Shown: in pieces, positions 4,053 through 4,598 of the stretch
Numbering within the stretch: the stretch's first letter is position 1
Layout: each line of letters opens with the position of its first letter
Source of the DNA: Candidatus Baltobacteraceae bacterium
GTDB taxonomy: Bacteria; Vulcanimicrobiota; Vulcanimicrobiia; Vulcanimicrobiales; Vulcanimicrobiaceae
DNA: 64,000 nt
Assembly: GCA_036489885.1 (NCBI GenBank)
Contig: DASXEW010000003.1
Coordinates: 682,001-746,000, forward strand
Reading direction: 5' to 3'
Translations under genes and position numbers: made by a program
The notes under the pieces: model-generated
Told to the model about the DNA's origin: nothing
The model's database searches: none
The model's input: the letters and a program-made list of their open reading frames with translations, nothing else

Positions 4053-4598
4053 ATGAGCCAGCGAATCACCGGGATTTCCCCCGAGGACTGCGACACCTAT
4101 GCACGCTCGGTCTTCGAGGCGCAAACCAAACTGTGGGGCGCGCCGTTGATCAACAACCGCGTGTACGCACGTCGTCCGACGATTTTCCGCGCGGTGCGAG
4201 GGATGTTCAGCGCGATCGATCAGTCTGGTCTGCTTACGCCGGAACTCCGCGCACTGATCAACCGCCGTGTTGCTTATCTAAATCATTGCGCGTTTTGAAC
4301 GGATATCAATGCTGCGGTCGGCAGCAAACTCGGCTTGAGCAAAGAGAAGCTGCTCGGGGTGGTTCAGACTTCGATGCCCGACGTGTTCGACGATGACGAA
4401 CGGCTTTCGCTTGAGTATGCGGATTTGATCACGCTTTCCGATCGCGACGTCGAGGACGCGTTTTTCGAGCGGTTGCGCGCACGCTTCGACGACGATACCA
4501 TCGTCGAGCTGACCGAAACCATCGCATGGGAAAATGCGTCGAGTAAGTTCAATCGCGCGCTGCGCATTCCGTCGCAAGGCCTATGGAGAGACGATTGA
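4053..4598 (+). CDS. AhpD/carboxymuconolactone-decarboxylase-like protein, probable selenoprotein (TGA read as Sec82)
   Basis: A single frame runs from ATG 4053 to TGA 4598 if the TGA at 4296-4298 is read through, giving 181 residues. Before it the protein reads LNHCAF, after it TDINAAVGSKLGLSKEKL. In this family that place holds the redox motif CxxC, so TGA sits exactly at the second Cys (Cys79-Ala-Phe-Sec82). The C-terminal half is intact, ending in the family-like AWENASSKFNRAL. A SECIS-like hairpin follows (4310-4326). Family members use the CxxC pair for thiol peroxidase-type chemistry, and AhpD-like selenoproteins are known. The His usually four residues after the second Cys is Asn here. 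The MOSC gene overlaps the end. Alternative: a nonsense mutation. Confidence 0.8.
4299..4326 (+). promoter_or_regulatory. Bacterial SECIS-like hairpin
   Basis: After the in-frame TGA come 11 unpaired bases, then a perfect 6-bp stem TGCTGC/GCAGCA (4310-4315 with 4321-4326) closing a GGTCG loop. In E. coli fdhF the SelB-binding hairpin likewise sits in the coding sequence just after UGA and carries GGUC in its loop. Here GGTC begins 17 bases after the UGA, against 18 in fdhF as I recall that sequence. Position, stem and loop support selenocysteine insertion. Confidence 0.72.

Follow-up and report, generated by a model that had tools for sequence, protein, structure and literature searches.

The window, a 64,000-nucleotide stretch of a Candidatus Baltobacteraceae (Eremiobacterota) genome, holds a CMD/AhpD-fold gene that is open except for one in-frame TGA, and this UGA is almost certainly decoded as selenocysteine (Sec) in an AhpD-fold redox protein, a degree of confidence that covers the decoding and leaves the substrate aside. 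Genome comparisons strongly support placing the gene product, as a selenoprotein, in the AhpD-like (YciW-type) group of thiol-redox proteins. The original prediction had called it a probable selenoprotein, and that proposal is borne out by the Sec machinery of the genome, by a TGA shared with 15 relatives and by a conserved SECIS-like hairpin. The features are as follows.

4053..4598, + strand: putative AhpD/CMD-fold selenoprotein gene, 181 codons plus a TGA stop, with the internal TGA as Sec82
4287..4289, + strand: codon for Cys79, a residue shared by all 27 aligned homologues and presumed to be the resolving partner of Sec82
4296..4298, + strand: putative UGA codon for Sec82, the second redox residue of the Cys79-Ala-Phe-Sec82 site
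4310..4326, + strand: SECIS-like hairpin UGCUGC-GGUCG-GCAGCA, 17 nt from the UGA to the apical loop
4583..5221, + strand: MOSC-domain gene, a neighbour only, not conserved in relatives

The start codon (ATG 4053), the internal TGA and the terminal TGA (4596-4598) share a reading frame that is otherwise free of stops over this stretch, and the open reading frame list cuts the gene into pieces of 81 aa (4053-4298) and 87 aa (4335-4598), just the split that had been foreseen for a standard gene caller. Read through, the two halves form a single family member of 181 residues, in which the Pfam CMD domain (PF02627) matches residues 42-123, spanning the TGA, with a score of 32.8 bits against a gathering cut-off of 23 that places the protein in the superfamily. 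The TGA aligns with the second cysteine of the CxxC site in Cys-containing homologues, as had been proposed. An AlphaFold2 model of the full-length protein (mean pLDDT 95.9) is all-helical, and Foldseek matches it over its full length, past the TGA, to AhpD-like PDB structures (TM up to 0.88), with Cys79 and Sec82 coinciding with their CxxC site.

Among curated families, the closest is NCBIfam NF053654, "YciW-related (seleno)protein" (GroundWater_YciW), which matches residues 3-179 (E 1e-79) and so bears out the earlier view that the downstream half is family-like. The match is full length and the curators' own name allows for selenium, but the window protein scores 266.5 bits against a curated equivalog cut-off of 310, and close relatives reach 306.7 bits; it is a close sister or divergent form of NF053654 and a non-member by the curated rule. 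It also falls well below the cut-off of the peroxidase-related enzyme family TIGR01926 (35 bits versus 81.8). From the NF053654 name and the CxxU motif, we assign the protein provisionally to COG2128 (YciW). AhpD-like COG2128 selenoproteins with a CxxU site were described from the Sargasso Sea in 2005 (PMC1088965) and from the GOS data in 2008 (PMC2398784), and they were tabulated again in reviews of 2022 and 2026 (PMC9312934, PMC13188914). They resemble the window protein in group name, in having CxxU at the CMD site and in a SECIS-like element after the UGA, although the 2005 and 2008 sets come from marine metagenomes and are likened to it by description. The suggestion that an AhpD-like CxxU selenoprotein might be undescribed therefore fails: the protein is not new in kind, having had catalogued counterparts since 2005 and a close family with an NCBI profile, and its only less expected features are the loss of the relay described below and the spread over several phyla. 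The Ktedonobacter entry in one further paper (PMC5330540) is AhpC and not a member of the AhpD-like (YciW-type) selenoprotein family.

In Mycobacterium tuberculosis AhpD, the second CxxC cysteine (Cys133) bonds AhpC (PMC6626918), so by homology Sec would occupy the attacking position. The AhpD proton relay consists of a Glu at C-12, the two cysteines and a His four residues past the second cysteine (PMC3141380). PA0269 and AhpD-core proteins (PDB 2ijc, 2o4d, 7xw1, 2gmy) share the all-helical CMD fold with CxxC in the same place, but they differ in carrying Cys rather than Sec and in their flanking residues, which are Glu (or His) at C-12 and His at the fourth position past the second Cys. The window protein retains the redox pair, as Cys79 and Sec82, but has Ala67 and Asn86 at the two flanking relay positions of the M. 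tuberculosis and PA0269 type; across its clade the Glu position is Ala (Ser in one sequence) and the His position is Asn in all. Because the clade is without the relay Glu and His, the label "alkylhydroperoxidase" is not firm.

We infer a catalytic role for Sec82 by analogy with Cys133: it would act as the attacking selenolate, Cys79 would resolve it as a selenenylsulfide, and a thioredoxin-like donor would re-reduce the pair. The likely task of such an enzyme would be the reduction of a peroxide, a peroxiredoxin-type disulfide or another electrophile. Selenols are ionised at neutral pH, and while Ala67 and Asn86 are directly visible in the alignment, it may be the selenolate that allows the enzyme to dispense with an activating Glu and His. 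We offer only tentatively the broader idea that the clade is a distinct AhpD-fold selenoenzyme which lost the relay since a selenolate needs no activation, which spread horizontally among Eremiobacterota, Ktedonobacteria, Rubrobacter and Acidobacteria, and which possibly acts on a non-peroxide substrate.

A related alternative keeps the selenoprotein as such and supposes that it is neither a peroxidase nor an AhpC reductase, acting instead on some other electrophile, in the manner of the debrominase Bmp8, or as a general thiol-disulfide oxidoreductase. The Ala67 and Asn86 replacements suit this alternative, as does the likeness to Bmp8 itself (PDB 6ohi, 6ohj), which Foldseek matches across the whole length (TM 0.85) and phmmer recovers with an E of 5e-5. 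Bmp8 is a Cys enzyme, however, and at 17-18% identity the likeness is one of fold only; nor does the gene context point to halogenated substrates, and we consider this alternative possible but on the unlikely side. That the UGA is decoded as Sec is common to both views, and we turn to the evidence for it.

TGA occupies the same codon in 15 of 15 close relatives, which are ~53-64% identical to the window protein and span Eremiobacterota, Ktedonobacteria, Rubrobacter, Acidobacteria and others; none has TAA, TAG or a Cys codon there. Since the codon is common to all 15, chance can be excluded as the source of the in-frame TGA, whose presence inside an otherwise open gene is confirmed. Within the same bacterial family, three genomes (G122-G124) encode proteins 61-64% identical with TGA at this codon, and when 84,980 species genomes were scanned, 15 loci came up, including two of the same-family Eremiobacterota again. 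TGA is likewise present in the scan loci of Ktedonobacter racemifer, Dictyobacter aurantiacus, Ktedonosporobacter rubrisoli, two uncultured Ktedonobacteraceae, one Rubrobacter, three Acidobacteria, one Pyrinomonadaceae and one Chloroflexi bacterium. The Dictyobacter vulcani copy (L064:4001-4527) keeps the TGA and has a disruption of the reading frame upstream of it, through sequencing error or decay; our count of 15 TGA-type relatives includes this copy and excludes the window.

The original prediction had named TAA or TAG at this codon in close relatives as evidence against it, and had looked to close homologues for Cys. No such stop was seen, and the expectation of Cys failed among close relatives, all of which have TGA, but held further out, where TGC appears at the codon only in a distant Burkholderiales sequence (L065, 42%) and Cys stands at the Sec82 position in other CMD relatives. 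Close Cys forms should have surfaced in the scan, because it used two search patterns, one specifying Cys at the Sec position and one that left this position out.

Selenocysteine use also accompanies the gene across genomes. tRNA-Sec was found in every genome of the TGA-type relatives, so that the UGA is kept in Sec-using species. Among near-complete, low-contamination genomes of the phylum, tRNA-Sec is present in 14 of the 14 with a TGA-type match versus 67 of 85 overall (hypergeometric P = 0.026). A few incomplete genomes (69-88% complete) carry a TGA-type match with no tRNA-Sec detected, which assembly gaps would explain.

In the bacterial SECIS model, the apical loop lies 16-37 nt from the UGA and has a G as its first or second nucleotide (PMC13188914). 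The hairpin at 4310-4326, with its 6-bp stem (UGCUGC/GCAGCA) and GGUCG loop 17 nt after the UGA, conforms to this model, and the loops of relatives are GGUCG or GUG. Such a hairpin follows 2.4% of all TGAs in the window, and synonymous reshuffling of the stretch yields one in 1.2% of cases. The six stem pairs are formed in 98.8% of cells of the comparison (14 sequences), with five compensatory changes; at the outermost pair, five sequences carry U-A in place of C-G. Only 1 of 500 shuffles reached the covariation score of the stem, a control biased in its favour because the stem was partly picked from the same sequences; the synonymous-codon test is independent. In that test, synonymous diversity is lower in the hairpin codons than anywhere else in the gene: all 15 sequences, counting the window, use GCT for the first Ala, and the values for the four 4-fold columns are 0, 1.0, 1.0 and 0.59 bits versus a mean of 1.54 outside. 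Overall folding energy, calculated for the 45 nt that follow the UGA, was unexceptional against synonymous shuffles (P = 0.20), and support for the hairpin thus comes from its short conserved stem and the codon constraint. Within the loop, positions 4316 and 4319 switch together between G..C and C..G among the compared sequences (codons GCG-GTC or GCC-GTG), although they are too near each other to pair in a normal hairpin.

The window belongs to a 3.48-Mb assembly (95.9% complete) in which all the Sec genes that the original prediction had listed for checking are present: a tRNA-Sec with a UCA anticodon (74.8 bits; ARAGORN call SeC (tca)), selA (503 bits) followed directly by selB (291.5 bits), and selD (375 bits). 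Guided by the hairpin, SelB would bring Sec-tRNA(Sec) to the UGA at 4296-4298, and decoding would yield a single all-helical protein of 181 residues with the site Cys79-Ala-Phe-Sec82. The selD gene (L018:1501-2427; G000:C3:303143-304069) has an in-frame TGA of its own at the active site, SGUASK, and is likely itself a selenoprotein gene; with this TGA, the selenium pathway of the cell itself appears to depend on UGA decoding.

Bacteria commonly show low-level read-through of UGA, and in principle near-cognate decoding or a general change of the code could place Trp or Cys at the codon, with no selenium involved. Against this, TGA serves as an ordinary terminator here (the selenoprotein gene itself, the MOSC gene and others), relatives have a redox Cys at the position, tRNA-Sec is present in each relative's genome and the SECIS-like element is conserved, so we regard such a reading as very improbable. 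That the gene has decayed, with the TGA a nonsense mutation or sequencing error and only an 81-residue fragment made, would agree with the split that a standard caller produces but has next to no probability, being contradicted by the TGA common to 15 relatives (~53-64% identity, several phyla) and opposed by the fully conserved downstream half (WENASSKFNRALRIPSQ is invariant in the alignment), the SECIS-like hairpin and the complete Sec machinery.

A 16-base overlap between the MOSC gene and the end of the selenoprotein gene suggests that the two are translationally coupled, and the original prediction had mentioned this neighbour. When the MOSC protein and the glycosyltransferase encoded upstream were compared by tblastn with all the relatives retrieved, however, the window alone matched; on visual inspection, the ORFs flanking the gene in the relatives are unrelated and vary between relatives. 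Since MOSC is absent beside the gene in all relatives examined, it is unfit for inferring function, and we discarded a functional link as a clue.

A well-supported selenoprotein gene that routine callers split in two makes for a clean annotation correction, because its UGA, its hairpin and the Sec machinery can be checked together. Our literature search found no paper joining Eremiobacterota with selenoproteins. The biological interest lies in what an AhpD-fold enzyme with a Cys-x-x-Sec site reduces when the usual acid-base relay is absent, and the missing relay residues are a detail possibly worth a biochemist's attention. The phylum contains another AhpD-like clade, more distantly related (L029, L031, L033, L039, L044, L047-L049), in which TGA likewise stands at the second CxxC position; its conserved hairpin is a different one, of the GGCGCC-UUGG type, and the clade keeps the relay Glu and His (L029 and L039 in the alignment).
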